A DNA stretch of 35,371 nucleotides from Acidobacteriaceae bacterium. GTDB taxonomy: Bacteria; Acidobacteriota; Terriglobia; Terriglobales; Acidobacteriaceae. Below the pieces are notes generated by a model. The model was given only the letters and a program-made list of their open reading frames with translations. It was not told the DNA's origin and ran no database searches. This document shows positions 2-17,977 of the stretch, piece by piece. Made by a program: the position numbers and the translations under genes. Each line of letters opens with the position of its first letter. Position 1 is the stretch's first letter. The stretch is taken from positions 1-35,371 of the forward strand of contig JANXZS010000210.1 in the NCBI GenBank assembly GCA_025355385.1, read 5' to 3'.

Positions 2-760
2 ATTGCGGCGTTCTACACATTCCGCTGGTCATCGTTAATGGTCTTTGCGGGGATGTGGATTTTCGCGCAAAACGTCGGCATCGCCGTTGGCTACCATCGG
101 CTGCTCACGCATCGTGGCTATGTTACTCCCAAGTGGTTGGAGTATTGCATCGCCGTGTGCGGCACGATGGCGCTGCAGGGAGGGCCGATCTACTGGGTGG
201 CAGTGCATCGCCTGCATCATCAGCTTACCGATCGTCCCGGCGATCCACATTCTCCACGAGACGGTAAATGGTGGTCCCACATAGGCTGGATCCTTCGCGG
301 AACCCTGCACAACGAAACTTCCTTACTCGCAAAGTATGCTCCAGACCTCGCCCGAGACCCTTTCTATTGCTGGTTGAGCCGATATAACTGGCTACCCGTC
401 ACGATCGTCGGCATCGCACTCTATCTTGCCGGAGGCTGGTCCTGGGTATTCTGGGGAATCTTTCTGCGTGCCACCCTCGGCCTGCATGTCACGTGGCTGG
501 TGAATTCCGCAACGCATATCTGGGGCTCGCGCCGGTTTGCGACTCGCGACGACTCGCGGAACAACTGGTGGGTCGCGCTTCTCACTGGCGGCGAGGGATG
601 GCATAACAATCACCACGCCCACCCGGTTTCGTGCCGGCACGGATTGGCCTGGTATGAACTTGATCTGAACTACGCCTGCATCCGGCTGCTGGCCGCAGTG
701 GGGCTAGCCCGCAAGGTGAAGGTCGCGCGGGTGGATGGCAGTTCCGCAATTCAGCACTAG
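2..760 (+). CDS. Fatty acid desaturase (acyl-CoA/acyl-lipid type), 5' end cut by window edge
   Basis: This is a membrane-bound di-iron desaturase that introduces a double bond into a fatty acyl chain. The frame is open from base 2, so the true start lies outside the window; the first ATG inside is at 38. All three histidine boxes are present: HRLLTH just after the second hydrophobic stretch, HRLHH about 40 residues later, and HNNHH near the C-terminus. Between the last two boxes lie hydrophobic segments expected to span the membrane. The architecture matches delta-9-type stearoyl-CoA desaturases. The exact substrate (acyl-CoA, ACP or lipid) cannot be told from sequence. The TAG stop lies inside a sequence resembling the arm of the inverted repeat at 4105-4338. 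Identification is firm; the N-terminus is missing. Confidence 0.93.
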   Translation: MAAFYTFRWSSLMVFAGMWIFAQNVGIAVGYHRLLTHRGYVTPKWLEYCIAVCGTMALQGGPIYWVAVHRLHHQLTDRPGDPHSPRDGKWWSHIGWILRGTLHNETSLLAKYAPDLARDPFYCWLSRYNWLPVTIVGIALYLAGGWSWVFWGIFLRATLGLHVTWLVNSATHIWGSRRFATRDDSRNNWWVALLTGGEGWHNNHHAHPVSCRHGLAWYELDLNYACIRLLAAVGLARKVKVARVDGSSAIQH

Positions 761-779
761 ATTATTTTGCCTGTAGGTG
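757..779 (+). repeat. Copy of the outer inverted-repeat arm overlapping the desaturase stop
   Basis: The sequence from CTAGAT through CCTGTAGG closely matches the arm of the 19-bp inverted repeat found around 4105 and 4320, with only a few substitutions. It begins within the last bases of the desaturase gene and includes its TAG stop. In copy 2 the same arm provides the stop codon of the 60-residue gene ending at 4334. This suggests that the composite repeat tends to sit right at gene 3' ends. Confidence 0.6.
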
Positions 780-780
780 T

Positions 781-912
781 GAGATTCTGAAAAAGATTGA
801 CGCTTCGCGAAACCAGCAGCCCTCCGAAAATCCCTCCCGCTGGCAGGCGGCTCCGCTTGCTGAGCTTATGGAGTACATCGTTCGCACCCACCATGAACGG
901 GTACGCAAGGAG
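781..912 (+). pseudogene. Remnant of a YtfE/RIC (ScdA) iron-sulfur cluster repair protein
   Basis: The frame starting at GAG 781 reads as the junction between the N-terminal DUF542 region and the hemerythrin-like domain of RIC proteins. It contains W-Q-A-A-P-L-A-E-L followed by M-E-Y-I-V-R-T-H-H-E-R-V-R-K-E. E. coli YtfE, as I recall it, has a very similar W-R-S-A-P-L-A-E segment followed by a first di-iron histidine. There is no N-terminal cysteine motif upstream, because the desaturase ends at 760. Downstream the similarity stops at about 912, where the sequence turns into the 42-bp repeat fragment, and the frame ends at TAG 973-975. It is therefore truncated at both ends and unlikely to be functional. 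RIC and Hcp both belong to nitrosative-stress defence, and hcp lies next door, so a former NO-response locus is a reasonable inference. Confidence 0.65.
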
Positions 913-916
913 ACTC

Positions 917-958
917 TCGCTGACGCTGGATACATCACACGATCCCTGCTTCTGCTCT
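917..958 (+). repeat. Half copy (right 42 bp) of the 114-bp palindromic repeat
   Basis: From TCGCTGACG to the terminal CCCTGCTTCTGCTCT this segment matches the right 42 bp of copy 2 (4272-4313) and the reverse complement of copy 3. The matching left terminal repeat is absent; instead the RIC remnant abuts it. It is in the same orientation as copy 2. Confidence 0.8.
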
Positions 959-984
959 ACACGTCGCAGTCGTAGTTACATATT

Positions 985-1009
985 CCCGCGGAGGTTATTC
1001 TCCCGCGGG
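985..1009. other. GC-rich hairpin in the desaturase-hcp intergenic region
   Basis: CCCGCGG at 985-991 pairs with CCGCGGG at 1003-1009, with two further pairs inside after a bulge. No strong T-tract follows on either strand. It lies downstream of hcp and may contribute to 3'-end formation. Confidence 0.45.
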
Positions 1010-1033
1010 CAAATGTTGCTCCAGACAACAAGT

Positions 1034-1057
1034 CCGGCGCGGGTAGCCCCGCGCCGG
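1034..1057 (-). terminator. Possible hcp terminator or 3' hairpin
   Basis: There is a perfect 10-bp stem (1034-1043 with 1048-1057) with a four-base loop, 22 bases past the hcp stop. On the reverse strand it is followed by ACTTGTTGT, which is T-rich but not a clean T-tract. It could be an intrinsic terminator of moderate quality or an mRNA 3'-protecting hairpin. Confidence 0.45.
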
Positions 1058-1079
1058 GCTCCAGTCTTGCGAGCGAAGG

Positions 1080-2720
1080 TCAAACCATCATAGCGGCCAG
1101 ATCCTCTTCCACTGTTGTGATCGCCATCAAGTTGAACTTCTCATGCAGAAGATTCAGCACCGCTGGTGACAGGAATACGGGCAGGGTTGGTCCGATGCGG
1201 ATATTGCGCACTCCCAGATGCAGAAGCGTGAGCAGTACCGCGACGGCCTTCTGTTCGTACCAGGACAGAACCATAGACAGGGGCAGGTCGTTCACTCCGC
1301 AGTTGAATGCCTTAGCCAGTGCCAATGCCACCTGCAATGCTGAGTAAGTATCGTTGCACTGACCCATATCGAGCAGGCGCGGAATGCCCCCAATTTCTCC
1401 GAATTCGAGTTTGTTAAAGCGGAACTTGCCGCAGGCCAGGGTCAGGATCACACAGTCCTGGGGAAGCGACGTAGCCAGATCAGTGAAGTAGCTGCGGCCC
1501 GAACGTGCTCCGTCGCAACCGCCGATCAGAAAGAAGCGCTTGATCGCTCCCGTCTTGACGGCATCGATGATTTTGTCTGCTACACCTAACACCGCATTGT
1601 GCCCAAAACCGGTCATGATCTCTTCATCAGGACCATCCTCATCAAACCCCGGCGCGCGCAGTGCGGCCGCTATGACAGCGCTGTAGTCTCGGTTGGAAAT
1701 ATGCTTCACGCCCGGCCATGCGACTGCACCGGCGGTGAAAATACGATTCACGTAGCTGGGCTTGGGGAGCTGGATGCAGTTGGAAGTCATCAGGATCGCA
1801 CCGGGGAAGGCATCGAAGTCGTTCGCCTGATCCATCCATGCTCCGCCGTAGTTGCCGGCCAGATGCGCATAGGCTTTGAGCTTCGGATAGCCGTGAGCTG
1901 GCAGCATCTCGCCATGCGTGTAAACGTTGATGCCGAGCCCCTTTGTCTGTTCCAGAAGAGCCCACAGGTCGCCGAGATCGTGTCCGGAAACGACAATCGC
2001 TTTGCCCTTCCTGGGATGAATTCGCAGTTTGGATGGCTGCGGATGTCCGAAGGTTTCCGTGTGGACCTTGTCGAGCAGTTCCATCACGCGGTAGTTCAAC
2101 TCACCAACACGAAGCGCCGCGGCCAGCAGCTGATCCGCCGTCGCAAAACGCGTGAGCGAGTCGAGGATTTCATGGATGATGGCGTAAGCAGCCGGATCGT
2201 CGCCGCCCAGCGCGTGTGCGTGGACCGCATATGCGGCAACACCTTTGATTCCGTACAACACCAGTTCCTGAAGGTTAGCGATTTCCCTCGTCTCGGTGAG
2301 GAATCGGACCGGAAGCAACGTCTCCTGCCCCTGTAGCAGCAAACCTTCCATAGTGGAAGCGGGTTGCCACGCAGCCGGTCCCTGCAATATTTCAGGAACA
2401 ACGCCGTTCGCCACACAAGCATTTTCGTAGAGAGAACGCGCTTGCTGACGAATCACCACCGCCTGATCAATCAGCACCATCAAGCGCTCAGGATCGAAAT
2501 TGACGTTGGTCAGCGTCGCGAAGATGGCTTCGATAGTGAACGCATCGATCTCAGGATCGGCCGCGCCCTGCTGCTTCGCCCGATGGGCGTACATCGAGAT
2601 ACCCTTTACGGCGTGAATCAGGAGATCCTGAAAAACCGCGGTGGTTTCATCTTTTCCGCAAACGCCTGAAGTCTGGCAGCCCTCGCCTTTTGAGGTTTGT
2701 TCGCACTGGTAGCAGAACAT
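1080..2720 (-). CDS. hcp: Hydroxylamine reductase / hybrid cluster protein
   Basis: Hcp contains a cubane iron-sulfur cluster and a hybrid Fe-S-O cluster. It reduces hydroxylamine to ammonia in vitro, and in enteric bacteria it acts as a nitric oxide reductase or S-nitrosylase. The 546-residue product has the usual length. The N-terminal cysteine set is C3, C6, C15 and C21, the spacing of the class with a short cysteine motif. Further conserved segments are TSNCIQ, IGGCDGA and ACGKFRF, which carry hybrid-cluster cysteines. The ATG is preceded by AGGAAGG at about 2730-2736. No hcr reductase partner lies nearby; a RIC remnant does. It diverges from the flavoprotein gene starting near 2900. Confidence 0.96.
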   Translation of the reverse strand: MFCYQCEQTSKGEGCQTSGVCGKDETTAVFQDLLIHAVKGISMYAHRAKQQGAADPEIDAFTIEAIFATLTNVNFDPERLMVLIDQAVVIRQQARSLYENACVANGVVPEILQGPAAWQPASTMEGLLLQGQETLLPVRFLTETREIANLQELVLYGIKGVAAYAVHAHALGGDDPAAYAIIHEILDSLTRFATADQLLAAALRVGELNYRVMELLDKVHTETFGHPQPSKLRIHPRKGKAIVVSGHDLGDLWALLEQTKGLGINVYTHGEMLPAHGYPKLKAYAHLAGNYGGAWMDQANDFDAFPGAILMTSNCIQLPKPSYVNRIFTAGAVAWPGVKHISNRDYSAVIAAALRAPGFDEDGPDEEIMTGFGHNAVLGVADKIIDAVKTGAIKRFFLIGGCDGARSGRSYFTDLATSLPQDCVILTLACGKFRFNKLEFGEIGGIPRLLDMGQCNDTYSALQVALALAKAFNCGVNDLPLSMVLSWYEQKAVAVLLTLLHLGVRNIRIGPTLPVFLSPAVLNLLHEKFNLMAITTVEEDLAAMMV

Positions 2721-2905
2721 GAAAATATTCCTTCCTGGTAATTTTGCTAATGTTTGAGTGGTCTTGAACTAAGCATAATTACTGACGGATTCGACGGCAG
2801 CGACTTAAGTCACACGCTGCACGGAGAGAATCGGCACGGCATAATTGATCCAGACGGTGTTATCTGGTCACGCGAAAGGGAGTGCTTTTTGGCGGAGGGA
2901 TGTGC

Positions 2906-4093
2906 GTGACGGAAACATTGTGGTCGGCTGCGCAATCCTGCGATGCAATCGTGCTTGGCGCGGGAGCAGCTGGCATGATGTGCGCCATTGAAGCTGGACG
3001 TCGCGGCAGACGTGTGGTGCTGCTTGAGCACGCCAATCGTCCGGGCAAGAAGATCCTCATCTCTGGCGGCGGCCGATGTAACTTCACCAATATCCATTGT
3101 CGACCCGAGAATTTTCTCTCGGCAAATCCTCATTTCGCCAAGTCTGCACTAGCTTCGTACACACCCCAGAATTTTCTTGAACTGGTGGCAAAGCATGGCA
3201 TTCCATTCCATGAGAAAACGCTGGGCCAGCTTTTTTGCGACCGATCCGCGACGGACATCGTGGACATGCTGGGAAAGGAGTGTGAGGCCGCGGGGGTGAT
3301 CACATTTCTTGACACCCGCGTGACCGAAGTTTCCCGCCCTGATGAGTTTGTCGTTCGCACCAATAGAGGCGAACTGAGGGCGCCTTCCCTAGTGGTTGCC
3401 ACCGGTGGACTATCCATCCCAAAGATGGGTGCGACTGCGCTCGGATATGAAGTCGCACGGCAGTTTGGCCTGGCTGTACGCGAATGCCGCCCCGCCTTGG
3501 TCCCGTTGACGCTCCACGGCAGCGATAAAGACGCTCTCTGCGATTTGTCCGGCGTCTCAACGGAAGTGATCGCGTCCTTTGGCCAGGGACGGTTCCGCGA
3601 AAAGATGCTGTTTACGCATCGCGGTCTTAGCGGTCCGGCAATCCTGCAGATTTCCAGCTACTGGGACTCGCGCTCTGCCATCACTCTCGATCTTGCGCCG
3701 GGGAAAGATTTGACTTCCACGCTACGAGCCGCAACCGCACGTCGTGACTTTACCACCGCGAGAGTGGCGTTGCGTGCCGCTTTGCCTGCGCGCCTCGCCG
3801 ATCGACTCCTCGAACTTGACCCCCCGGCGGGCTGGAACAATCACGCCCTCGCCAACTACGAAAGTCATCTCCATGCATGGCCCATCACCCCTGCGGGGAC
3901 CGAGGGTTACGAGAAGGCAGAAGTGACTTCTGGAGGCGTGGATACAGGAGAGCTTTTCGCGCGCACAATGGAAAGCCGTCGCGTGCCGCGCCTATTTTTC
4001 ATAGGCGAAGTTGTGGACGTCACCGGCCACCTCGGTGGCTTCAACTTTCAGTGGGCCTGGGCCTCCGGCGCAGCAGCAGGCCGCGCGGTATAG
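2906..4093 (+). CDS. BaiN/YhiN (HI0933) family NAD(P)/FAD-dependent oxidoreductase
   Basis: This is a flavoprotein of the HI0933/YhiN family; some members, such as BaiN, reduce bile-acid-like substrates, but most have no known substrate. The FAD-binding Rossmann motif GAGAAG appears right after the start, followed by the family signature GGGRCNFTN and a C-terminal GEVVDVTGHLGGFNFQWAW segment that closes the FAD site. There are three in-frame starts. GTG 2906 is favoured because GGAGGG at 2894-2899 sits six bases upstream; ATG 2900 abuts that motif, and GTG 2882 gives 403 residues. The gene is apparently monocistronic and divergent from hcp. Confidence 0.9.
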   Translation: MTETLWSAAQSCDAIVLGAGAAGMMCAIEAGRRGRRVVLLEHANRPGKKILISGGGRCNFTNIHCRPENFLSANPHFAKSALASYTPQNFLELVAKHGIPFHEKTLGQLFCDRSATDIVDMLGKECEAAGVITFLDTRVTEVSRPDEFVVRTNRGELRAPSLVVATGGLSIPKMGATALGYEVARQFGLAVRECRPALVPLTLHGSDKDALCDLSGVSTEVIASFGQGRFREKMLFTHRGLSGPAILQISSYWDSRSAITLDLAPGKDLTSTLRAATARRDFTTARVALRAALPARLADRLLELDPPAGWNNHALANYESHLHAWPITPAGTEGYEKAEVTSGGVDTGELFARTMESRRVPRLFFIGEVVDVTGHLGGFNFQWAWASGAAAGRAV

Positions 4094-4151
4094 CCATGGA
4101 CACAGCTAGATCATTTTCCCTGTTGCTATGTACTTTTTAGAATGGGAATAA

Positions 4152-4177
4152 GCAGCTTTTCTTAACGGAAAAGCTGC
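4152..4177. terminator. Hairpin between convergent genes, possible bidirectional terminator
   Basis: GCAGCTTTTC (4152-4161) pairs perfectly with GAAAAGCTGC (4168-4177) around a six-base loop. On the reverse strand it is followed by TTATTC; on the forward strand by GCCATCTTC. It lies between the convergent flavoprotein gene and the 60-residue gene, so it could end transcripts from either side, although the T-tracts are poor. Confidence 0.5.
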
Positions 4178-4199
4178 GCCATCTTCACTTCTCCGGTCT

Positions 4200-4313
4200 A
4201 GGGCAGAAGCAGGGTTACTGTAAGCTAAGTCAGAGATTTTTGTATGCATTTAAATCAAGAAAATGCCTACATCGCTGACGCTGGATACACCACACTATCC
4301 CTGCTTCTGCTCT
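4200..4313 (+). repeat. 114-bp palindromic repeat element, copy 2 (full)
   Basis: The ends are AGGGCAGAAGCAGGG and CCCTGCTTCTGCTCT, an inverted pair with one mismatch out of 15. Inside, GCATTT and AAATGC form a shorter inverted pair. The reverse complement of copy 3 (17276-17389) has exactly the same length, with identical ends and a matching right half. It shows no coding potential and fits a MITE- or REP-like non-autonomous element or a structured terminator. Confidence 0.85.
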
Positions 4314-4333
4314 ATGCCTACAGGGAAAATGAT

Positions 4334-4516
4334 CTAGCGGCGGATGAAGTACATCAGCCAGCTGGCTGCCATCACGGCCGCGACGAACATGGCAAAGCAA
4401 TATATCCCGTAACGAACCATGGCCTTCGTAGTGGAGCGCTGCGTGACGCCAAAAACTACGGAAGCAAACAATGCGAAGATAAGCACCGCCGTGAAATGGG
4501 AAGGAGCAAATATCAT
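4334..4516 (-). CDS. Small membrane protein, 60 residues, unknown function
   Basis: The product has two hydrophobic segments, roughly residues 8-25 and 37-57, and ends in a positively charged tail (FIRR), so it is probably a two-span inner-membrane protein. I do not recognise a family. The start ATG overlaps the stop of the upstream gene as ATGA. A strong GGAGG lies five bases upstream, inside the end of that gene. Translational coupling to the DUF6677-like gene is therefore likely. Its TAG stop is within the right arm of the 19-bp inverted repeat. Confidence 0.75.
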   Translation of the reverse strand: MIFAPSHFTAVLIFALFASVVFGVTQRSTTKAMVRYGIYCFAMFVAAVMAASWLMYFIRR

Positions 4517-5007
4517 GCCTTCCTCCCGATGCGGATGTTGTGAGCATCCACGGCCGAAATCACGTTTAGCAGGCCCGCAACGACCGTGAATTTCGTCCCG
4601 TAATCCGCCGTCGCTACCTGCACCGCTCCATGCCCCAGATCGAGCGCGCGACCAAGCGCGTAGAGCAACCCTCCGCCCAGATCACCGGCGAAACCGAGCA
4701 TGTCGAGAATGTCACCCGCATTCGGAGCGTAGAGCTTGCCCTGCATCAGCAGCCCCAGCACAAACATGGTTGTAATCGAAATAAAAAGAAGAGCGCCGCG
4801 GCCCCAGCGCTTCTGGAGCACATGTCCCGCTCCCGGCACCAGCCATCCCACAATTAACGGAAGATAGACAAAGCCGGATCCCGATCCCGCTTCACCCCGC
4901 CTTGCAACTTGAACATTCGAGACCATCCCCTTGAATATACAGCACGGCAAGCGTGCTGTTGTGCAGTCGCAAGTGAGAGCTTTGGCGGAAAGCAAGACCA
5001 CAACCAA
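4513..5007 (-). CDS. DUF6677-like membrane protein
   Basis: This is a membrane protein with a segment PLIVGWLVPGAGH followed by KRWGRG, then a second hydrophobic stretch and a C-terminal LLNVISAVDAHNI, an arrangement I associate with the DUF6677 family of Acidobacteria. The function is unknown. The long start is TTG 5007, with GAGGAG at 5014-5019 six bases upstream, an ideal ribosome site. An alternative is ATG 4926 (137 residues), where AAGGGG abuts the start codon; it would begin just before the conserved region. The family name is from memory and moderately secure. It forms a unit with the overlapping 60-residue gene. Confidence 0.75.
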   Translation of the reverse strand: MVVVLLSAKALTCDCTTARLPCCIFKGMVSNVQVARRGEAGSGSGFVYLPLIVGWLVPGAGHVLQKRWGRGALLFISITTMFVLGLLMQGKLYAPNAGDILDMLGFAGDLGGGLLYALGRALDLGHGAVQVATADYGTKFTVVAGLLNVISAVDAHNIRIGRKA

Positions 5008-5055
5008 AGCATTCTCCTCACTCCCTCGCCGGATCCAAGCTGACCGCTGTGCCAG

Positions 5056-6240
5056 CTAAATCCTCACCAGATCCGTTTGCACTTGGCCCGTGGTCTCTGC
5101 CCTTCCCGGCCAGGTCATCATGTTCAGCTCGCTGCGCACGCCGAACTCCGACAGATAGATTCCCGGCTCCACTGAAAAGCACGTATGGGGCAGGATCAGC
5201 CGTTCATCATGCGTTTCCAGATTATCCAGATGGGCACCGTTCCCATGCAGTTCGGTGGCGATGTTGTGCCCAGTGCGGTGAGTGAAGTATTCCGCCAATC
5301 CAGCTTTTCTGATCACCTCGCGCGCAGCATCGTCGGCCTGCCAACCAGCGATCTGTTGGCCTTGAGAAAAGGCTTGCCGGACCAGATCCACGGTCGCGTC
5401 GCGAGCTTCCCGCACCGTCTGGAAAATCTGATGCTCCCGCTCACTGGGTTCTCGGCCAATCACTCCAGTCCATGTAATGTCGTACCAGCACGAATTAGCA
5501 ACCGTGCAACGAGCCCAAATATCCACCAGGAGAAAATCTCCATCGCGGATATTTCGCGAAGTAGCGGCCGTCGGTTCGTAGTGAGAGTCAGAGGAGTTTT
5601 GATTCACGGAGACATTGGGTCCGTTCTCCCACTCCAGGCCTGCCCTGCGCATGGCCTCCTGGAGCCACATCACCATGTCGTACTCGGTCACCGTCTGGCG
5701 CGAACCGCCGTTGGCCGTTCGCAGACGACGCCCTATCTCACGGAAGCCTTCGGCGAGAATCTCATCTATCGCACGCTGCGCCTTGTAGTGGGTCTCGATC
5801 TGGGCCTCGGTCAACACCGCCTCAAACTGGCTGACGAGATTCGCCGAGCTCACGATGATCTTCCTGTATTCGCGCAAAACTTCGATCGTGCCTGCGTCTA
5901 CCATCGAGACATACATGATCGCGTTACGCGGCGAGTATTGCATCGCAATGCGATCATAGCCGGCAAGCATTCGCTGCAATCCTTCTTCGAGCTCCTGCCA
6001 CGAGGAGTACAGGCCCTTATCGCCGGGCAGTGTATCCAGTCGCCCCTGCTCCACGCGGTGCACCAGTTTGCGCGGTTCCCCTTCCGCCGGCACCAGGTAG
6101 TACCAGCGCCGCGTTACGTGCATACTTTCGCTCAGGCCAAGGATTCTGTACGCGATGGGATCACGATGGTGATGATCGTAAAAAAGCCACCCGTCCAGCT
6201 TCTGCTCACGAAGTGCGGATTGAATCGCTTCCAAGTTCAT
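5056..6240 (-). CDS. M24 family metallopeptidase (Xaa-Pro aminopeptidase-like)
   Basis: The product has 394 residues. It has an N-terminal creatinase-like domain of about 150 residues and a C-terminal pita-bread catalytic domain. The expected metal ligands are visible: D in LLVDIW, D in WYDITWTG, H in HRTGHNI, E in SVEPGIY, and E in VRSELN. This set supports a dinuclear metal enzyme that cleaves Xaa-Pro or related peptides, probably cytoplasmic because no signal peptide is seen. No Shine-Dalgarno sequence precedes ATG 6240; instead a TACAAT hexamer lies seven bases upstream, which suggests a leaderless transcript. Confidence 0.9.
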   Translation of the reverse strand: MNLEAIQSALREQKLDGWLFYDHHHRDPIAYRILGLSESMHVTRRWYYLVPAEGEPRKLVHRVEQGRLDTLPGDKGLYSSWQELEEGLQRMLAGYDRIAMQYSPRNAIMYVSMVDAGTIEVLREYRKIIVSSANLVSQFEAVLTEAQIETHYKAQRAIDEILAEGFREIGRRLRTANGGSRQTVTEYDMVMWLQEAMRRAGLEWENGPNVSVNQNSSDSHYEPTAATSRNIRDGDFLLVDIWARCTVANSCWYDITWTGVIGREPSEREHQIFQTVREARDATVDLVRQAFSQGQQIAGWQADDAAREVIRKAGLAEYFTHRTGHNIATELHGNGAHLDNLETHDERLILPHTCFSVEPGIYLSEFGVRSELNMMTWPGRAETTGQVQTDLVRI

Positions 6241-6247
6241 TCGTGTG

Positions 6248-6253
6248 ATTGTA
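6248..6253 (-). promoter_or_regulatory. Candidate -10 element for the M24 peptidase gene
   Basis: TACAAT on the reverse strand ends seven bases before the ATG at 6240. A good -35 hexamer is not obvious. If used, transcription would start at or next to the A of the ATG, giving a leaderless mRNA, consistent with the lack of a ribosome-binding site. Confidence 0.4.
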
Positions 6254-6343
6254 GAAGAGGAGTGTGGTTCCTGCAGAAGTTGAGCCAGAGCCCAGCCACT
6301 ACGCGCGCTGACCGTAGCCCATTCTGCCGACTCGCTTGCGAGT

Positions 6344-6787
6344 CTAGCTGCTCATGCCCGTGATGTAGGCTTCCAGATGACGGATGGTTTCCTGTTGCGC
6401 CTGCATCATCCAGTTCACCAGGTCGCCGATGGAGATTACGCCAACCACACGGTCTCCCTCCAGCACTGGAAGGTGGCGGATCCGGTTTTCCGTAATAATT
6501 CGCATGCAATCGCCCACAGTATGCCTGGGCGTCACGAAGATGACTGGGCTGCTCATGATTTCACTTATCTCCGTGTCCTTCGAGCTTCTGCCCCGAATAA
6601 CCACCTTGCGGGCGTAGTCCCGTTCCGAGAGGATGCCGACAAGTTTGTCGTCTTCCATCACCAGCAAGGCACCCACGCTCTTCTCAGCCATTGTTACTAC
6701 GGCGTCGTAAACAGAGGCAGACGGAGACATCGACCATACCAGCCCCTTCTGCTTCAAGATCGGACCGATTGCGTCAGAGAATTCCAT
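6344..6787 (-). CDS. Two-CBS-domain protein
   Basis: The 147-residue protein consists almost entirely of a tandem CBS pair (a Bateman module). The first spans about residues 20-75, with the signature VGILSERDYARK; the second about 80-135, with VVGVISIGDLVNW. Such stand-alone modules bind adenine nucleotides and act as regulatory or sensing subunits, but the partner cannot be read from sequence. AAGGTG lies seven bases before the ATG. It is separated by about 100 bp from the M24 gene downstream and 210 bp from the binding-protein gene upstream, so it is probably its own transcription unit. Confidence 0.9.
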   Translation of the reverse strand: MEFSDAIGPILKQKGLVWSMSPSASVYDAVVTMAEKSVGALLVMEDDKLVGILSERDYARKVVIRGRSSKDTEISEIMSSPVIFVTPRHTVGDCMRIITENRIRHLPVLEGDRVVGVISIGDLVNWMMQAQQETIRHLEAYITGMSS

Positions 6788-6896
6788 GGGCAGTCACCTT
6801 GGGAATGGGATGATAGCGCCCGGGCAAAACAACGGTCAACATTGCCCGGCAAGTGAAGAGTGAGAGCTCTTATCTGTTGCTGGGATGCGGGTCCGC

Positions 6897-6934
6897 CCCG
6901 CGCAGCCGTTTTTCAACGGAATGGGCCGCGCGGG
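6897..6934. other. Nested GC-rich inverted repeat between the CBS and binding-protein genes
   Basis: CCCGCGC at 6897-6903 pairs with GCGCGGG at 6928-6934, and inside it CCGTT and AACGG pair around TTTC. It lies 66 bp downstream of the binding-protein stop. It may be a 3' structure for that transcript, although no T-tract follows. Confidence 0.5.
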
Positions 6935-6999
6935 AATAAGTTCTTGCTCCATGCCTGGAGGAACTGATCAGCCCGCCGGGCCGACCCTCATGCCGCGCG

Positions 7000-7998
7000 C
7001 TAGTGGGCCTGGGCATCTGCCCGGGATTTCAGGAAGATGTCCACATTGCCATTATCCACAAGGGTGGCGCCCGTATCCACAAATGTTGGAAGCGGCGAAA
7101 ACGAATCGACTGAATACACCGTCCCCAGCGACTTCAGTGGGTAGTGGTGTAGATCGTCGAGCTGCTTCAACCCATAGAACGCCATAGTAAAGGGCTTCTG
7201 CGCAATCGTGGCGTCAATGACACCGGCCTTTACCAGGTTCAGCGTCTCCTCATCTACATCCATCGCCACCAGCAATTTGCCCTTCGCGTTAGCGCGCTTC
7301 ATTGCTTCGGCTACATCCTTGCCTGCCGAAGCCTCAAGGCACACAAGGGCGTCAATTTTGCCTGCCCCCGTACGACCTAGATACTCGGTAGCCTTGTCGA
7401 GTGCCGTACCCGAGTCACCCTTGATGTTGAAGATCTCCACCACGTTGATGCCCGGATGGGTGGCGAACACATCCTGATAACCCTTCAGGCGCTCATCGAG
7501 ATTAGGTTGGCCCGGCATGCTGAAAAAAATCACGTTGCCCTTGCCGTTGAGCTTCTGCACCAGCCGCGTCCCGCCGAGACGGCCCGCCTGCAGGTTGTTG
7601 GTCCCGATGAAGAGCAGCCGGTGGCTGTTCGGGGCATCGGAGTCCATCGTGATCACCGGAATGCCGGCCTGGATCGCCGCGTCAATTTCCGGCGCCATCA
7701 GTTTAGGATCCGCTACCGAGACCAGGATGCCTGCGGGCTTCCGCGCCACCACATCGCGGAATTCCTTCACTTCTGCTTGTGGGTCAAATGTGTCGGGCCC
7801 GCGCATCTCTGCCGTCACGCCAAACTGCGCAGCCGCCTGCTCCAGACCAAGCGCAGCCGACTGCCAATAAGGCAACTTGGTGTTTACCACGACCAGATAG
7901 TAACTCTCAGACTTGGCATGGCGCTCGCACCCGGCCAGCATGGTTGCCAGAGTGATAGCAAAAACCCCAACAAACAAACGCGACACAAAATTTGGCAT
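7000..7998 (-). CDS. Sugar-type ABC transporter substrate-binding lipoprotein (RbsB-like)
   Basis: This is a periplasmic binding protein of the type-1 (Peripla_BP_4) fold that usually captures ribose or another sugar, or autoinducer-2. The signal peptide covers residues 1-23 and ends in the lipobox L-A-G-C, so C24 should be lipidated. The mature part shows the typical pattern: a Y-L-V-V-V-N strand, the hinge segment P-V-I-T-M-D-S-D, and A-L-V-C-L-E further on. The 332-residue length fits the family. GAGGTG lies four bases before the ATG. No permease, ATPase or sugar-metabolism genes are adjacent, so the ligand is unknown and the partner transporter must be elsewhere. Confidence 0.88.
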   Translation of the reverse strand: MPNFVSRLFVGVFAITLATMLAGCERHAKSESYYLVVVNTKLPYWQSAALGLEQAAAQFGVTAEMRGPDTFDPQAEVKEFRDVVARKPAGILVSVADPKLMAPEIDAAIQAGIPVITMDSDAPNSHRLLFIGTNNLQAGRLGGTRLVQKLNGKGNVIFFSMPGQPNLDERLKGYQDVFATHPGINVVEIFNIKGDSGTALDKATEYLGRTGAGKIDALVCLEASAGKDVAEAMKRANAKGKLLVAMDVDEETLNLVKAGVIDATIAQKPFTMAFYGLKQLDDLHHYPLKSLGTVYSVDSFSPLPTFVDTGATLVDNGNVDIFLKSRADAQAH

Positions 7999-8200
7999 AG
8001 TTCACCTCAGTTGGAAAAAATCCTGCACGGAGCTTATTTAGATACAAGTCCAATGGACCGAGCTAGGAAAGACGGATTCTACGCCCCTGCCGGTCAAATT
8101 GACACCCTGAGATGAAAGACGCACGGAAAATCTAGATTGCGTCCCTCCTCGGTTGGCCTGGCACGGTCAGAAAGGCATGAAAAGAGGTATCCAATCGGCC

Positions 8201-8238
8201 AACAAAAGGGGCGCGCAGAATGTGCCTGCACGCCCCTT
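8201..8238 (-). terminator. Intrinsic terminator of the rimP-nusA-infB operon
   Basis: On the reverse strand AAGGGGCG (8238-8231) pairs with CGCCCCTT (8213-8206), extended by GCA/TGC inside, and is followed by TTTGTT. It begins 22 bp after the infB stop, so it is well placed to end the operon. Confidence 0.75.
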
Positions 8239-8260
8239 CCGTCTGGCTTTTGTTGTTTTT

Positions 8261-11200
8261 CTACGCTGTCAGAACCGCCGCGATGCGCTCGGTCACGAAG
8301 GCTTCAATCGTATCGGCAACCTTCAGATCATTAAAGTTGGAAATACCGATACCACACTCCATGCCATTCGTCACTTCCTTCGCATCGTCCTTAAAGCGGC
8401 GGAGCGAAGAGAGCTTGCCTTTGAAGACCTGTTCGCCGTCGCGCAGAATGCGAATCTCTGCATCGCGCTTGATGGCGCCATCGGTCACACGGCAACCGGC
8501 GATTGTGCCCACCTTCGGAATCTTGAAGATGTTGAGCACTTCCGCACGGCCCGAATAGTTTTCCTTGATGGTCGGCTCCAGCAGTCCAAGCATCGCCTTC
8601 TTCATCTCGTCCTGCAGTTCGTAGATGATCGAATGCAGGCGAATCTCCACGCCTTCCTGCTCTGCCAGTTGAGATGCTTCGCGTCCCGGCCGAACCCCGA
8701 AGCCGATCACGATGGCATTCGATGCCGAGGCCAGCAAAATATCGCTCTCGGTGATCGCACCCACTCCGGTATGAATCACCTTGATGCGAACTTTTTCCGT
8801 CGACATCTTCTGCAGCGAGTCGGCAAGCACTTCGACCGAACCCGTAACATCGCCCTTGAGGATGAGAGGCAGTTCCTTGACCCCCGCCTGCTTGATCTGT
8901 TCGGCAAGCCCTTCAAGCGATACCCTCGACGACTTCGCAAGCTGCGACTCGCGCTCCTTCATCTTGCGATACTGCGCGATGCCCTTGGCCTTGTCTCGAT
9001 CTGCTACTACCAGGAACGTGTCGCCAGCATCCGGCATACCCTCCAGCCCGAGGACTTCAACCGGCGTCGATGGCCCAGCCTCTTCCACGGGGCGCCCGCG
9101 ATCATCGAACATCGCACGCACCTTGCCGAAGGTGTTGCCCATAATGAAGCTGTCGCCTGACTTAAGCGTGCCATTTTGTACCAGCACCGAGGCGACAACA
9201 CCCCGACCGCGATCCAGTTTGGCTTCTATAACGGTTCCCACAGCCTTGCGATCTGGAGTGGCCTTGAGTGCCTTCAAATCGGCAACGAGGCAGATCATCT
9301 CCAACAGCAGATCGAGATTAATACGTTTCTTCGCGGATACATCCACGAACACCGTATCGCCGCCCCACGCTTCTGGCACCAGCCCGCGATCGCCCAACTG
9401 CTGCTTCACGCGATCCGGATTCGCCTCGGGTTTATCGATCTTGTTCACCGCCACGATAATCGGCACATTGGCCGCCTTCGCGTGATCGACGGCTTCAAGT
9501 GTCTGCGGCATCACCCCGTCGTCCGCCGCCACCACGATAACTACAAGATCGGTCACCTTGGCGCCGCGTGCACGCATCCTCGTAAAGGCTTCGTGACCCG
9601 GCGTATCCAGGAAGACGATCTCGCGCCCGTGAGCCGGAGATCCTTCCTTGTTGAAGCGCACCTTGTACGCGCCAATGTGCTGGGTAATACCGCCAGCCTC
9701 ACCAGCCGCCACATCGGTCTCGCGGATTGCGTCGAGCAACGAAGTCTTGCCGTGATCGACGTGGCCCATCACCGTGACTACGGGAGGACGAGGCACTTCG
9801 AGTTCGTCGGGATTCTCAGTCTCCAGAATCTCTTCGATGGCTTCGTTCGCCATCTCCTCTTCAAAGCTGATCACCAGCGCATCGGCGCCAAACTGGCGCG
9901 CAATGTCCTTGACAAGTTCGCCCTCGAGCGATTGGTTCACCGTGACAAAGACTCCGCGCATCAACAGCGAAGCGATCAGGTCCTTGCCGCGTACATCGAG
10001 CTTCTCCGCAAGTTCCTTTACGCTGACGCCTTCCGTCACCGTGATGGTGCGCGTGATCGGCACCGGCTCGCGCGAGTATCCGCCGCCCATGCGTGGCGGC
10101 GGAACAAAGCCCTTCATCGAGCCTTCTTTGCTCTTTTCGTAGCGTTTGTTGCCACCACCGGGACGCCGATTAGGCCCCGTAGGCCGCTGCGGCCGCGGCG
10201 CTTCTCCCGGAGGAGGCATCATCCCACCAGCTCCGACGCCCCCTCCCGGACGGGCACCAAAGCCAGGACGACCGCCCATTCCCGGGCGAGTACCCATTCC
10301 TGGACGTGCCCCGGGAGGACCACCCGTTGGCGAACTCCGCGTAGGATGCATGGGGCGGCGACCTGGGGCTCCCGCTGGACCGGCCTGGAAACCCGGACCG
10401 CCTGGCGGTCGCTGACCAAATCCCGGAGCCCCACCCGGCCGACCGCGATCAAAAATCGGACGACCGCGTTGAATGCCTGCAGGACCAGCCGCTTGGGGCG
10501 CATTGACCGTGGGCGGCGGCGGCGGCGGAGCCGTATATACCGGCCGTGGGCCCGTCTGCGGCATGATCACGCGACGTACGGGCGGTGGAGGCGCTACCGG
10601 TCTCGCCGCAGCTGCCACTACCGGAGTTGAGGTCTCGGTTTCGGCGGCAGCAGCAACCTCGACCCTTTCAGTACTCTGCGCTCCATCGCCAGTCTGGGTA
10701 ATCTCGGACGCCGAAGTGACTCTCGTCGCGGATTCTGACTTGGCAATCGGCGCGGCATTCGTTTCCGCCACTGGAGTTGCCACCGGCGCTGCGGCCATCG
10801 CAGTTGCTGGCGCAGTCGATGGTGCTATTGGAGTGGAGAGTGCCGTTGGCTTGACGGCAACCGGCGCCGTCGGAACCGACGAAGCAATTGCCGGCTTTCC
10901 TTCACCGGCCACTACCTTCCCGGCCGGGGGCGCAGCTACCACCGGACCCATCGGAGGCTTGGCGGCAATCGCCGGCACTGGGGCGATGATGCGCGGTTCC
11001 TGCCGGGGCTGGGGAACAATCTTTCGCGGAGCGGGCCTGGACGGCTCTGGCGAAGGTGCCACATGGACCGGGGCCACAGGCTTGGGCGGCGCAGGCGTAA
11101 CGGCGACGACGACAGCAGCGCTGGGCTTCGGTGCAGTGGCTACTACGCGACGATTCTCGCGCTCAGCAGCGACCTCCTCGTTCCGGCTCTGGATTGCCTT

Positions 11201-11455
11201 GAGCACATCGCCTGGTTTGGATACACGCGACCAGTCAATCTTTGGCTTCGGTTCGCTCTCCACCTTATGCGGGCTCGCGGACGCACTGCGGCCTGCGCGC
11301 TGAAAGTGGACACGCACGCGCTCCGCTTCATCTGCCTCAAGCGAACTGGAGTGAGTCTTCTTTTCCGTAACGCCAACATCCGTGAGAACGTCCAGAATTG
11401 ATCTACTCTTGACTTCCAGTTCCCTGGCTAAATCGTTGATCCGAACTTTACTCAT
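8261..11455 (-). CDS. infB: Translation initiation factor IF-2
   Basis: This GTPase delivers initiator fMet-tRNA to the 30S subunit and promotes subunit joining. An IF2_N helical domain occupies residues 1-50. A long low-complexity segment rich in Ala, Pro and Gly fills roughly 65-440, and a second IF2_N-like domain lies near 465-525. The G domain starts at about 558 with GHVDHGKT (P-loop), then DTPGHEAF and NKID. Beta-barrel domains and the fMet-tRNA-binding C-terminal domain follow. At 1064 residues it is longer than E. coli IF-2 (890), mostly through the linker. It is the last gene of the rimP-nusA-infB operon, with AAGGGGCGG just before the ATG. Confidence 0.98.
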
Positions 11456-11585
11456 CCGCCCCTTTTTGGCACCGTTCCCATGGCTCTAGATGGTCATAAC
11501 ACCCTCTCGCCGGTGGGGCTCAGTGCAACTTCTATTATCCTCTGAAATCGCGCCATATGCGCTGCTCAAGATCGCGGACGCCATT

Positions 11586-13268
11586 TCAGGCGCCACCCTC
11601 TTCATCCCTGTTTGCCTTAGGCTCCAGGGCATGCTTCTCTATCGGCAGATCCCGCGACACCGTAACCTTCCGCGCCGGCAGTTCACCCGTCGCGGCATCT
11701 TCTTCCTTCAATTCCCCTGGTACTTCGGCCGCCTCGGCAAGATCCTCTGGATCGGCAGCCACTTCATTGCTGATGATTTCGCCCCCGGGATCAACCGGAA
11801 CCACGCCTTCATCCCCGGCCACTTCGCCGGACTCGGTCATCTCTTCCACCATCGCCCCGGCCACATCGTCTTCAATCAGGCCCGATCCATCCGCTGACGG
11901 CGTGACTTCATCGCTCTGGCTCAGTCCGGCTACTGTCTCGCCTTCGATCGCTTCTGCCGCCACTTCGGCAGGTGCAGGCCGCTCTTCGCCTTCCTCGTAC
12001 TCGCCGAAGTAGTGGCGCACCGCTACGCTGATCTTTTCAAGCGTTTTCTCACCAATTCCTGGAACCTCTTCGAGCTCTTCCGGAGTCATATCGGCCAGCG
12101 CTTCGACCGTCGTAATACCGTGCGCCACCAGCTTCTGGATGATTGCCTCGCCCAGTTCGCTAACCTGCTCAATCGGCGTAGAAGGCCCGCCAGACATGGC
12201 CTGCATCTGCTGCTCGACCTCCTGCCGCTTCTCCTCTTCGCTCTTGATGTCAATCTTCCAGCCCAGCAGTTTCGCCGCCAGCCTTACGTTCTGGCCTTTC
12301 TTGCCGATAGCCAGCGATAACTGGGTATCATCGACGATCACTTCAATCTGCTTGTCGCTGAGATCGGCAATGCTCACCCGGCTCACCTTGGCGGGCTGCA
12401 GAGCCTTCTCCGCGAAAGTCGTGATCTCTTCGCTGTACTCGATAATGTCGATCTTTTCCCCGCGCAATTCACGGATGATGGATTGCACGCGCATGCCTTT
12501 CATGCCGACACATGCGCCCACCGGATCCACATCCTTGTCCCGCGACATCACCGCAATCTTGGTGCGCTCGCCAGCCTCACGCGCAATGGCGCGGATGACT
12601 ACGGTTCCGTCGTAAATCTCCGGCACTTCGCTGTGGAAGAGGTTTTGCACCAGTTCGGGCGCGGCGCGGGACACAATCACCTGCGGTCCCTTGGCGGCGC
12701 GGTCCACCCGCAACAAGACAACCCGCACGCGTTCGCCGACCGCGAATTGCTCCAGCCGGGACTGCTCCCGGCGCGGCATTCTCGCCTCGGTCTTGCCCAG
12801 ATCGAAGATCACATCCTGCGGCTCGACGCGCTTCACCGTTGCCGTCAATACCTCGTTCAGACGGTGATTGTATTCGAGGAAAACCGTGTCGCGCTCAGCC
12901 TCTCTCACCTTCTGGAAGATGACCTGCTTGGCCATCTGCGCGGCGATGCGGCCCAGAACATCGGTCGGCTTGTAGTAACGGATCTCGCCGCCGATCTCCA
13001 CCTCGGGGGCCAGGCCTCGCGCCTCTTCCAGTGCAATCTGATTCACCGGGTCTTCAATCTGTTCCGGAGCTTCCACCACCGTCTTGTAAACGTAGGCCCG
13101 GATCTCGCCCGACTCCTTGTCCAGCTCGGCGCGCATGTTCTCCTGCGTCTTGTAGTACTTGCGGGTAGCCAGCGCGATTGCGTCTTCCACGGCTGTCACT
13201 ACGATCTGGGGATCGATCCCCTTCTCGTGACTCAATGCTTCGATACTCTGATACAGCAAACTTGCCAT
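11586..13268 (-). CDS. nusA: Transcription termination/antitermination factor NusA
   Basis: NusA binds RNA polymerase and nascent RNA and modulates pausing, termination and antitermination. The 560-residue protein has the N-terminal RNAP-binding domain (about 1-125), an S1 domain (about 135-200) and KH domains including the VGACVGMKGMR signature, with the IGKKGQNVRLA motif further on. A helix-hairpin-helix region near 375-425 contains the GIGEKT turn. After about 435 comes a very acidic tail of roughly 120 residues, ending in a short basic stretch. Unlike many bacteria, no ylxR or L7Ae-like gene lies between nusA and infB; the gap is 130 bp. Confidence 0.97.
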   Translation of the reverse strand: MASLLYQSIEALSHEKGIDPQIVVTAVEDAIALATRKYYKTQENMRAELDKESGEIRAYVYKTVVEAPEQIEDPVNQIALEEARGLAPEVEIGGEIRYYKPTDVLGRIAAQMAKQVIFQKVREAERDTVFLEYNHRLNEVLTATVKRVEPQDVIFDLGKTEARMPRREQSRLEQFAVGERVRVVLLRVDRAAKGPQVIVSRAAPELVQNLFHSEVPEIYDGTVVIRAIAREAGERTKIAVMSRDKDVDPVGACVGMKGMRVQSIIRELRGEKIDIIEYSEEITTFAEKALQPAKVSRVSIADLSDKQIEVIVDDTQLSLAIGKKGQNVRLAAKLLGWKIDIKSEEEKRQEVEQQMQAMSGGPSTPIEQVSELGEAIIQKLVAHGITTVEALADMTPEELEEVPGIGEKTLEKISVAVRHYFGEYEEGEERPAPAEVAAEAIEGETVAGLSQSDEVTPSADGSGLIEDDVAGAMVEEMTESGEVAGDEGVVPVDPGGEIISNEVAADPEDLAEAAEVPGELKEEDAATGELPARKVTVSRDLPIEKHALEPKANRDEEGGA

Positions 13269-13415
13269 AGTCTTCTCTCTGTCGCCCCGTACTCATGCCC
13301 GGCTTCGAAATCCGCAACGGTTGCCGATGCCGAAGGCTTGAACATACCGGCAATCAGCTGCGTCGTTGCGTCTCGCCTTATGTGACGTGCCGTATTCGCT
13401 GCCCCAGTGGATGCC

Positions 13416-14003
13416 CTAAATCTCGGGAACCAGATTGGCCTTTTCTATATTGGCCAGAAGGATTTCGACCGATTCAACTCCCTCCGCCTTTTTTCGCTTT
13501 CCCTTCTGCTTCAAAGCAGAAAGATCCAGTCGTATCGAATTCGCGGCAATCTCTGTCAGCCTGCCCTGCCAATGCCGGTTGCCTGCCACCGGCTCAAACG
13601 TCTGCAGTTTTAGTATGCTGCCGCGGAAGCGCTTGTAGTCCGCGCGTCCGTAGAGCTTGCGGTCCAGGCCCGGCGACGATATTTCGAGCGTGTAATCGCT
13701 GGCCGGAACCAGCTCTTCGACATCGAGAACGGTGCCAAAATCCTGGCTGAAACTCTGGCAGTCTTCGTGTGTCACCCAGGCAAGCTGATCGATGTTCAAT
13801 TCGCCTGCCGCAAGTTTTTCCGGGAGATCCGCTTCCGCAACCGCCGCCGCCTGCCTGGCGCGTCCTTCCGCATTCTTCTCGATGAAAACGCGCATTACCC
13901 TCTGCTTGCTACCGCCGAGATATTCGATTTCCACTACCTCAAGCCCGTGCGATACCGCCACGCGGTCGGCCAGGGCACGAATTGTCTCGAGATTCAGCGC
14001 CAT
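13416..14003 (-). CDS. rimP: Ribosome maturation factor RimP
   Basis: RimP assists 30S subunit maturation. The product shows the N-terminal alpha/beta domain with LEVVEIEYLG and RVFIEK, and the SSPGLDR motif around residue 107 followed by the C-terminal SH3-like domain. The start chosen is ATG 14003 (195 residues, MALNLETIR); a TTG at 14027 would add eight residues without a better ribosome site. It is the first gene of the rimP-nusA-infB operon, the usual bacterial arrangement, 147 bp upstream of nusA. Confidence 0.93.
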   Translation of the reverse strand: MALNLETIRALADRVAVSHGLEVVEIEYLGGSKQRVMRVFIEKNAEGRARQAAAVAEADLPEKLAAGELNIDQLAWVTHEDCQSFSQDFGTVLDVEELVPASDYTLEISSPGLDRKLYGRADYKRFRGSILKLQTFEPVAGNRHWQGRLTEIAANSIRLDLSALKQKGKRKKAEGVESVEILLANIEKANLVPEI

Positions 14004-14039
14004 AGATTGCACGCAGACACCCGCCAAAACGCTGGCTGA

Positions 14040-14057
14040 TTGCGGTTTTTACCGCAA
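14040..14057. other. Small perfect hairpin in the rimP leader
   Basis: TTGCGGT (14040-14046) and ACCGCAA (14051-14057) pair around a TTTT loop (AAAA on the reverse strand). It directly follows the T-tract of the terminator-like hairpin at 14065-14080 on the reverse strand and lies 36 bp before the rimP start. Confidence 0.55.
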
Positions 14058-14080
14058 AAGAAAAGTGGGCTCTCGCCCAC
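14056..14080 (-). terminator. Terminator-like hairpin in front of rimP (terminator or attenuator)
   Basis: On the reverse strand GTGGGC-GAGA-GCCCAC is followed directly by TTTTCTTTT, a textbook intrinsic terminator. It could end the DUF4097-like gene 235 bp upstream. However, a candidate promoter at 14134-14162 lies upstream of it, so it may act as an attenuator in the rimP-nusA-infB leader. Confidence 0.75.
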
Positions 14081-14133
14081 TCATTTCTCCCGGCCACTGG
14101 TACACCGCCAGGGACAAACTTGTCTGCTTCTGT

Positions 14134-14162
14134 AGGATACGACGTTTCTTCAGGGAATTCAA
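14134..14162 (-). promoter_or_regulatory. Candidate promoter for rimP-nusA-infB
   Basis: On the reverse strand TTGAAT (-35, 14162-14157) is separated by exactly 17 bp from TATCCT (-10, 14139-14134). Each hexamer matches the sigma-70 consensus at four of six positions. The predicted start near 14127 would give a leader of about 120 nt that includes the terminator-like hairpin. The rest of the 14081-14314 stretch shows no gene I can support. Confidence 0.4.
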
Positions 14163-14314
14163 TCCACATTCCGCGGGACCATGGGACGGAGCCGCAAGTC
14201 GCAGGCACGGGTTTGTCTACTGCGGCACTGAGCGCTTTCCCTGGCAGGATTGCGTGCGCGTCGCGGCAGCAATGCTCCCTCCCAGGGGAAGCTCGCGGTG
14301 CGTCTATGGCTCGT

Positions 14315-14998
14315 CTACATGCCGCCGTCTTCTCCGGTCAGTACCAGATCCCCGGCACCGACATGCAGCAGCAATTGATACCGCCCTTTTCCCTCCAGAA
14401 TCAACGTGCCCCCCCACAATCCACTCTGCTTGCTATGAAATACACCATCGGTCAGTTCGCCCAGACGCACATCAGCCCTCACATGCCCATACGCTACAGG
14501 ATCGGCTCCCCGCAGCGTGAGCATACCCGATTCGACGCGGAGGTCCTTATCGCCCTTGACCCCAGCAACTGTGAGGCTTCCGCCCTGCATTTTCACCACG
14601 AGAGTGGTGACTGGTGGCACATAAATCGTAACCAGGCCAGCGGAGCGACCAGTGGGAAGCCGCAGATCAATCGCTGCATGGCCGCCCTCGACATCCATAC
14701 GTTTCACCCAACGCTGCTGCGCCAGCACTGGATCGAGTTGGTGGCCGGTAACCCCAACCTCGAGCCGGATTTGCCCTGGCTGCAGGTTGCGCACGATGCG
14801 CACCTCCCCGGCATTGACCACTAAATCCAACGCTGCGCCCTCGGGGAACGCTTTTTCTACAACGAACATGCGTGGCTCGTCCGTGCGCGGGTGCGGGCCC
14901 GCAGAGTGCTGCCCTTGCAGCGCCCCACAAGAACACGACACCAGGACCAGACCGGCAAGCCTCATCCACGAGTGTCCGGCGAGCGAACTTCTCTGCAA
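14315..14998 (-). CDS. DUF4097-like exported protein, possible lipoprotein
   Basis: The mature part is made of short repeating beta-strand units such as [30 protein letters not shown] and [13 protein letters not shown]. This is the pattern of DUF4097/DUF2807-type beta-solenoid domains of surface or adhesin-like proteins. The N-terminus has a basic patch, a hydrophobic stretch and an L-V-S-C lipobox-like site, so it is exported and may be lipidated. TTG 14998 is chosen because GGAGG at 15004-15008 lies five bases upstream; TTG 15028 and ATG 14965 are alternatives. It is divergent from guaB, with a 5' gap of about 150 bp. The function is unknown. Confidence 0.75.
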
Positions 14999-15048
14999 GG
15001 CTTCCTCCGTTTCTTTGCTGCGATGCAACGGTTTCGGTGCGCCTGAGT

Positions 15049-15077
15049 TTGCCGTTGCGGGTAGGCCCCTCTACAAT
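15049..15077 (+). promoter_or_regulatory. Candidate guaB promoter
   Basis: TTGCCG (15049-15054) and TACAAT (15072-15077) are separated by 17 bp, a good sigma-70-type match. The predicted start near 15084 gives a 5' leader of about 63 nt. The leader contains a CCCAGC/GCTGGG stem and a GGGT/ACCC pair just before the ATG, but no clear close Shine-Dalgarno sequence. Confidence 0.6.
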
Positions 15078-15146
15078 GGCAAGAGGCCATCCCAGCTTCA
15101 GCCTATTCTTTCGCCCTGCTGGGCCGGGGTGTCTTTAAAAACCCAC

Positions 15147-16676: not shown

Positions 16677-17184
16677 GGAGTCGCCCTTCTTGCGGCTGAT
16701 ATCCGCGTGGATACCGGCGATCTGCGCAATCGCCATTATCGTTTGGGAATCAACCGAACGGTTTTCTTCCGCGAATACCAGTGCCCCGCTGCGCCACTTG
16801 TGGGAGCTTTGGGCCGGCCCGGTGAGCGACCAGGTATGGCTGCTGATTCATCACCACATCCGCAAGGCGGGTCACGTCTTAGGGTATGGCCTGTTGAGCG
16901 GCTTCATCTTCCGCGCATGGTTCCTGACGATCAATCTTGCCTCAGCCCTCAGGGTTTTAGCCTGGCAAGTCAGCACTGTCATGGCCCTGGCCTGTACCTT
17001 GATCATCGCCACCGCTGATGAAGTTCACCAAAGGTTTCTGATTTCCCGTTCAAGCTCACCAAGGGACGTAGCCATCGATATGGCAGGAGCCCTGACGGCA
17101 CAACTACTGATTGCAACGTTTATCCTCCTCTATTCCCAACCGCGCCAGCAGGCTCTACGCCCCCAGACCAGCCCCGAATCCTGA
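16666..17184 (+). CDS. VanZ family membrane protein
   Basis: The 172-residue protein has an N-terminal hydrophobic segment and further spans around residues 70-90, 95-115 and 135-160. It carries the VanZ-like signature H-x-x-R-K-x-x-H-x-x-x-Y, then DEVHQ followed by [11 protein letters not shown]. VanZ of enterococci gives low-level teicoplanin resistance, but most homologues have no known role. The ATG overlaps the end of guaB by 11 bp, so the two are probably cotranscribed and translation may be coupled. The start is supported by a GGGAAG about 11 bases upstream. Confidence 0.85.
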
Positions 17185-17275
17185 AGCCTTTGCAAAATTC
17201 TGCAGCCAAAAAACGCCGCACTCCATATCGGGTGCGGACGCTTGTGAGTCTTTAGAAATTACGTGCGGGCTTCTT

Positions 17276-17864: not shown

Positions 17865-17977
17865 GGTCGAATCTCTCTATCTGGAGTTCTCAGTCATTAG
17901 TGTTCAGTTGCCGGTGGCGTCCGAATCCTCTATCGCGAACGACGCACCGGTAGCTGCTGAAAACTGACTGCACTTTA

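Follow-up and report, generated by a model that had tools for sequence, protein, structure and literature searches.

A probable IS630-type MITE family in an Acidobacteriaceae genome duplicates TA and often occupies stop codons

The closest described counterpart of the repeat family reported here is RUP of the pneumococcus, a 107-bp element present in 108-110 copies with terminal repeats and TA at its ends, which the passages describing it ascribe to IS630-Spn1 acting in trans and report as over-represented between convergent genes (PMC2229807, PMC3049150). Insertion with duplication of TA is described as habitual for IS630 elements (PMC2170065). Correia/NEMIS and ERIC elements are likewise portrayed as about 107-155 bp long, with TA at their termini and base-paired transcripts, and effects on mRNA stability are reported for ERIC (PMC2229807). 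That repeats can supply stop codons has precedents in the texts on BOX and REP sequences: in one pneumococcus 58 coding sequences overlap BOX repeats, and 36 of them take their stop codon from the repeat (PMC3049150), and the ends of GTAG REPs often provide TAG (PMC3733652). The acidobacterial repeat that we call family 1 is similar to RUP, as described, in size, copy number, terminal repeats, TA ends and an excess between convergent genes. RUP differs in belonging to another host phylum, the likeness being one of description and not of sequence, and in that its genome is reported to hold an IS630 element with similar ends, whereas we found no intact one in the genome of family 1. Correia/NEMIS and ERIC are also likened by description, with no mRNA-stability effect shown for family 1 as it is for ERIC. 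The supply of stop codons is shared with BOX and GTAG REPs; the former are described as modular and the latter as 20-40 bp long and tied to RAYT, neither of which applies to family 1, and the passages on them contain no description of a TA duplicated within the stop codon.

The window, meaning the whole stretch of 35,371 nucleotides that was analysed, belongs to a draft genome of 4,626,746 bases (4.63 Mb) in 321 contigs. An earlier note on this DNA had recognised two full copies in opposite orientation and one half copy of a palindromic repeat, and all three are real (Table 1). Its measurements needed small corrections: the unit given as 114 bp has 116 bp once the flanking TA is counted, the half copy put at 42 bp (917-958) extends one base further, and the terminal inverted repeats of 15 bp are 16 bp long and perfect in the consensus (TAGAGCAGAAGCAGGG). 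The internal palindrome that it mentioned reads GGCATTTTC-ATCAA-GAAAATGCC in the consensus. Family 1 is a short, non-coding mobile element, and on the evidence presented below it is very likely a MITE (non-autonomous DNA transposon) of the IS630/Tc1-mariner type, with a YTAR target and TA duplication.

Table 1. Repeat copies and adjoining gene features in the window.
Feature	Position	Strand	Remarks
Family-1 copy A, probable MITE	4199-4314	+	116 bp including both TA; TA duplication 4199-4200 / 4313-4314
Family-1 copy B, probable MITE	17275-17390	-	inverted; inserted in the stop codon of presumed rplQ
Family-1 half copy	917-959	+	right-hand 43 bp; remainder missing
Family-2 probable MITE	4107-4336	.	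~117 bp without insert; interrupted by copy A; ends TAGATCATTTTCCCTGT
Lone family-2 end	758-774	+	two mismatches; precedes the presumed ric-like remnant on its left side
Presumed ric/hemerythrin-like gene remnant	785-916	+	ends where the half copy starts; longer in the sister species (by inspection)
Presumed rplQ	17388-17807	-	TAG stop formed by the duplicated TA and the first base of copy B
Small ORF	4334-4516	-	stop formed by the family-2 end; ...LMYFIRR* here and in the sister species

Across the whole genome the end pattern TAGNGCAGAAGCAGGG, with at most 2 mismatches, gave 196 matches (100+96 on the two strands) against 15 (7+8) for the reversed control, and individual positions were listed for 100 of the 196. 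The core pattern, with at most 3 mismatches, gave 61+62 matches against 0+0 for its reversed control; a place often matches on the two strands at once, and merging the core matches listed leaves at least 81 distinct places. Numbers of this order cannot be put down to chance. From 88 places examined (30 loci, two of them the full copies of the window, and 58 further ones) we extracted and aligned 85 distinct full copies with a profile, and the remaining three comprise a partial copy (L128), one cut by a contig end (L130) and a lone chance end match (L109, C56:46217) with no match to the element model. The family is thus estimated at 85 to 90 copies, with about a dozen ends unaccounted for. Exactly 116 bp is the length of 70 of the 85 full copies, and the consensus has 16-bp ends, asymmetric arms and, at its centre, a hairpin whose 10 pairs close a loop of 5 bases; the full unit folds back on itself with a predicted energy of -52.6 kcal/mol. 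Identity to the consensus averages 93.7% (range 87.9-98.3%) over the 85 copies; pairwise identity averages 88.4% against 87.9% for a pure star, the closest pair reaches 95.7% and no pair 97% or more. The copies are star-like around one consensus, which suggests to us that they spread in a single burst from one master or a small number of nearly identical ones; we see no hint that the family was active recently.

Direct evidence for TA duplication comes from the nested site in the window, where copy A interrupts a member of a second repeat family. This family-2 copy has a perfect 19-bp outer inverted repeat (4105-4123 / 4320-4338), and family-2 ends have 37 matches in the genome against 0 for the control; 16 copies were extracted, including the one in the window, and fall into two sequence subtypes, six uninterrupted copies being of the same subtype as the window copy. 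The site of copy A reads GGTC-TA-[element]-TA-TGCC, and five of these six relatives (L144, L152, L163, L166, L169) carry a single TA after GGTC, the sixth (L161) having TT, so that the TA was duplicated when family 1 inserted. The stop codon of rplQ in the sister species, which has no element, agrees with such an insertion. Over the 85 copies, C precedes the TA in 88% and T in 9%, and G follows it in 72% and A in 27%; the reconstructed pre-insertion targets are CTAG in 49, TTAG in 15, CTAA in 12 and other sequences in 9. The target of family 1 is YTAR, mostly CTAG. A CTAG-like target has reportedly been described for IS630 as well, to judge by the title of a 1991 paper by Tenzen and Ohtsubo that PMC2170065 cites.

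The ends of family 1 point in the same direction. IS630-type transposase matches (PF13358) occur in 114 of 300 genomes of the same bacterial family, this genome included, and 50 such loci (30 + 20) were searched for TA-bounded terminal repeats. Fifteen full-length elements were chosen by a length of 990-1060 bp, a limit fixed only after the ends had been viewed, and by a match at 17 or more of the 26 end bases; common to their ends are TAGAGCA on the outside and, at positions 20-24, an inner box resembling GTGTA. Elements of this kind (L184, L196, L224 and others) are TA-bounded with an outer TAGAGCA as family 1 is, and the box at 20-24 is common to both; they differ from family 1 in being about 1.0 kb long with a transposase gene and in bases 8-16 of the end. 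Scored against the matrix of the 15 elements, family-1 ends gave p = 2.5e-5 (left) and 2.5e-4 (right), their inner part alone 6.9e-4 (left) and 7.7e-3 (right), and family-2 ends reached the floor of the test, 5e-6. When each of the 30 IS630 ends is scored against a matrix that excludes its own element, the values run from 9.2 to 29.2; the family-1 ends, at 7.9 and 3.2, fall short of every one, and the parent would therefore be a more distant relative of this subset. Family-1 ends thus resemble the full-length IS630 ends of the same bacterial family, with a weaker fit, and an IS630 transposase probably mobilised the family; the enzyme and its binding sites are what we infer here.

No intact IS630 element with family-1 ends was found in the 321 contigs of this draft. 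The genome has two PF13358 matches, on contigs C312 and C321; both are decayed, neither transposase is flanked by family-1 ends, and we rejected them as the parent. The decayed stretch on C312 has an end, TAGATCAATTTCCCTCT (3199-3215), close to that of family 2, with an inner part that misfits the IS630 matrix (p = 0.09), and the same contig carries two ordinary family-1 copies, at 926 and 15414. That the window itself contains no transposase, as the earlier note had it, holds for the two protein families checked, PF13358 and PF01797, none of whose matches in this genome is on the contig of the window. Since the assembly is a draft of 321 contigs, the autonomous partner may be unassembled, and it could lie among the ends unaccounted for; a MITE is able to outlive its autonomous partner.

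A different enzyme, a tyrosine transposase of the RAYT type, would be implied if family 1 were a terminal repeat of the REP/TIR kind, like those reported for the TIRtrons of Acidobacteria (PMC3733652). Acidobacterial RAYT genes with flanking terminal repeats are on record, GTAG REPs are reported often to supply the TAG stop of flanking open reading frames as family-1 copies do (PMC3733652), and this genome has two Y1/RAYT-like genes (L225 on C68, L226 on C137). No family-1 copy lies in the stretch fetched around either of them (0/2; one stretch has only 1,977 bases), the unit of 116 bp exceeds the 20-40 bp given for the REP palindrome (PMC3733652), insertion duplicates TA, and the ends resemble those of IS630. 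We consider this origin very improbable and rejected it on the two RAYT-like genes and the TA duplication, and with it the REP-type reading of the earlier note; its MITE reading gains from the terminal repeats, the duplicated TA, the high copy number and the IS630-like ends.

To place the copies relative to genes, we called genes with a small purpose-written finder that scores hexamers and took its training set from the long reading frames of the loci retrieved; each pre-insertion site was classed after removal of the copy and one TA. The TA lay in a stop codon in 38 of the 85 sites, between convergent genes in 23, between tandem genes in 14, between divergent genes in 2 and within a predicted gene in 4, with 4 unassigned. 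The statement that the copies lie at gene 3' ends therefore applies to most copies genome-wide, the 4 within predicted genes and the 2 between divergent genes being outside it. As a null we took the unused TA sites outside gene interiors in the same loci, weighted for YTAR, which is not fully independent as these loci all bear copies; it splits into 22.5% stop codon, 28.9% convergent, 40.6% tandem and 8.0% divergent. Stop codons account for 38 of the 77 assigned copies outside gene interiors against the 22.5% expected (p = 2.9e-7), and the excess is weaker against plain unused CTAG sites, of which 21 of 80 are in stop codons (Fisher p = 0.003; 201 sites in total, 103 inside genes and 18 unassigned). 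Among intergenic copies alone there is a modest convergent excess (23/39 against 22/59 CTAG sites, p = 0.04). One of the 38 copies touches two stop codons, which brings the number involved to 39; before insertion 35 of these read TAG and 4 TAA, the codon after insertion is TAG wherever TA and the G are intact, and orientation relative to these genes shows no preference (20 same, 22 opposite).

Two cases lie in the window, and both agree with the sister species. The product of the gene that we take to be rplQ (ribosomal protein L17) ends in ...EGKS* (TAG) here and in ...EGKA* (TAA) in the sister species; this stop-codon comparison was used since the empty-site alignment of 17050-17460 is poor in its intergenic part. 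The other is the small open reading frame that ends in family 2 (Table 1). A copy on contig C4 (L118) was set aside as proof of an identical stop, the gene ends in the sister species differing by a few residues.

Such an excess could arise if the transposition complex actively preferred stop codons or gene 3' ends beyond what the CTAG motif and selection produce. The departure from the null, the ratio of stop-codon to convergent intergenic copies (38:23, p = 0.004) and the similar behaviour of family 2, with 8 of 16 copies in stop codons (8 of 15 assigned, p = 0.009), would all fit an active preference. Against it stand the weaker excess over plain CTAG sites, the predominance of TAG among used stops, which the CTAG motif alone favours, the equal appearance that survivors of selection and products of targeting would have, and the full-length IS630 elements, of which 1 in 15 lies in a stop codon with 9 of the 15 unassigned. 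We regard active preference as rather unlikely. Of similarly low probability is the broader proposal that the two MITE families, being of one length and design, represent a stop-codon-seeking class whose transposase favours stops or 3' ends and whose landings are protein-neutral through the G; if it were true, a 116-bp hairpin would stand, by our estimate, at the ends of perhaps 1 gene in 100.

The hairpin itself raised the question of a benefit to the host, as a bidirectional transcription terminator or a protector of mRNA 3' ends, and the earlier note had spoken of a portable bidirectional terminator. In favour of such a role, the unit has its predicted hairpin, 58 of the 80 copies with both neighbours called and outside open reading frames lie between convergent genes, and divergence is uneven, at 3.7% in the central hairpin against 7-9% in the arms; the hairpin value is still 3.6% when the count is limited to the 63 copies in which one end or both are perfect. 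Other signs expected of such a role are absent. There is no run of T in the flanks on either strand (T 1-28% at +1 to +10, A 1-35% at -1 to -10); paired sites diverge by 6.3% and unpaired ones by 6.0%; double changes number 23 where 15.9 are expected, and only 10 of the 23 are compensatory; and the balanced orientation reported above shows no polarity. The sister species yielded no copy, and the orthologous genes there do without one. An excess between convergent genes has, in the passages concerned, been noted for RUP, BOX and IS elements too, with tolerance given as the reason. Signs of selection on the fold are absent, a terminator role is not supported, and the host-benefit reading as a whole appears improbable. 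Within the MITE reading we attribute the low divergence of the hairpin to constraint that acted on the active lineage prior to insertion, and selection after insertion could also have lowered it; decay from a single master does not predict uneven divergence, which counts against that part of the model, as do consensus sites 96, 98 and 99. At these three sites, in the right arm (about 4294-4297 in copy A), 25-28% of copies depart from the consensus; each site shows several different bases and the changes are little linked, and the corresponding positions mirrored in the left arm are conserved.

Taken as an IS630-type MITE, family 1 suggests the following course. An IS630 transposase acting in trans would recognise the ends, that is the 16-bp repeat and the inner box at about positions 17-24, and mobilise the 112-bp body into the TA of a YTAR site, preferably CTAG, with duplication of the TA. 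One master sequence may in this way have spread to some 85-90 copies in the lineage of this species, the copies then decaying and the parent element being lost or not assembled. Because the body begins with G, an insertion into a TAG or TAA stop codon would rebuild TAG at once, in either orientation. Tolerated YTAR sites would be those in stop codons or between genes, and insertions that disrupted a gene or its promoter were presumably lost, which would explain why copies accumulate at gene 3' ends. The fit to stop codons offers a simple reason for the high copy number that IS630-type MITEs can reach in a dense genome, since the duplicated TA and the leading G restore the stop codon.

Family 1 has so far been found in one species, judging from the sequence collections searched. 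None of 60 relatives, one of them of the same genus, has a match. The exact end occurs 80 times in this genome and once each in 6 of the 397 others among 398 genomes of the bacterial family, where only the end region matches and the rest of the element has no match; the reversed pattern, by our own count, matches 9 family genomes. A paired-end pattern had no match in a collection of 84,980 species (from which this genome's own records were perhaps left out), and single-end patterns gave one match there, in Calothrix (L173), and one in viral contigs (L174). Because the reversed control also matches 9 genomes, we take the matches in the six family genomes, Calothrix and the viral contig, all confined to the end region and at most 11.5 bits, as chance. 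The earlier note recognised no named family, and we likewise found no family-1 match in plasmids or phages and no match in Rfam 15 at the gathering score (window 600-18200). On this check family 1 is a new IS630-type MITE family, best compared with RUP, and adds an acidobacterial counterpart to the pneumococcal element. A text search of open-licence literature, which is blind to sequence, returned no paper on acidobacterial IS630-type MITEs or on TA insertion in stop codons. The noteworthy part is the frequent and exact use of stop codons.

In the window, family-1 copies are also placed at a break in synteny and at a cut gene end. Collinearity with the sister species is lost between 4093 and 4334, where the nested pair lies, the left side continuing on contig C8 and the right side on C3, and this may be a join of the draft assembly. 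The gene remnant at 785-916, presumably of a ric/hemerythrin-like gene, is placed between the lone family-2 end and the family-1 half copy, and it adjoins what we take to be an hcp-like gene.
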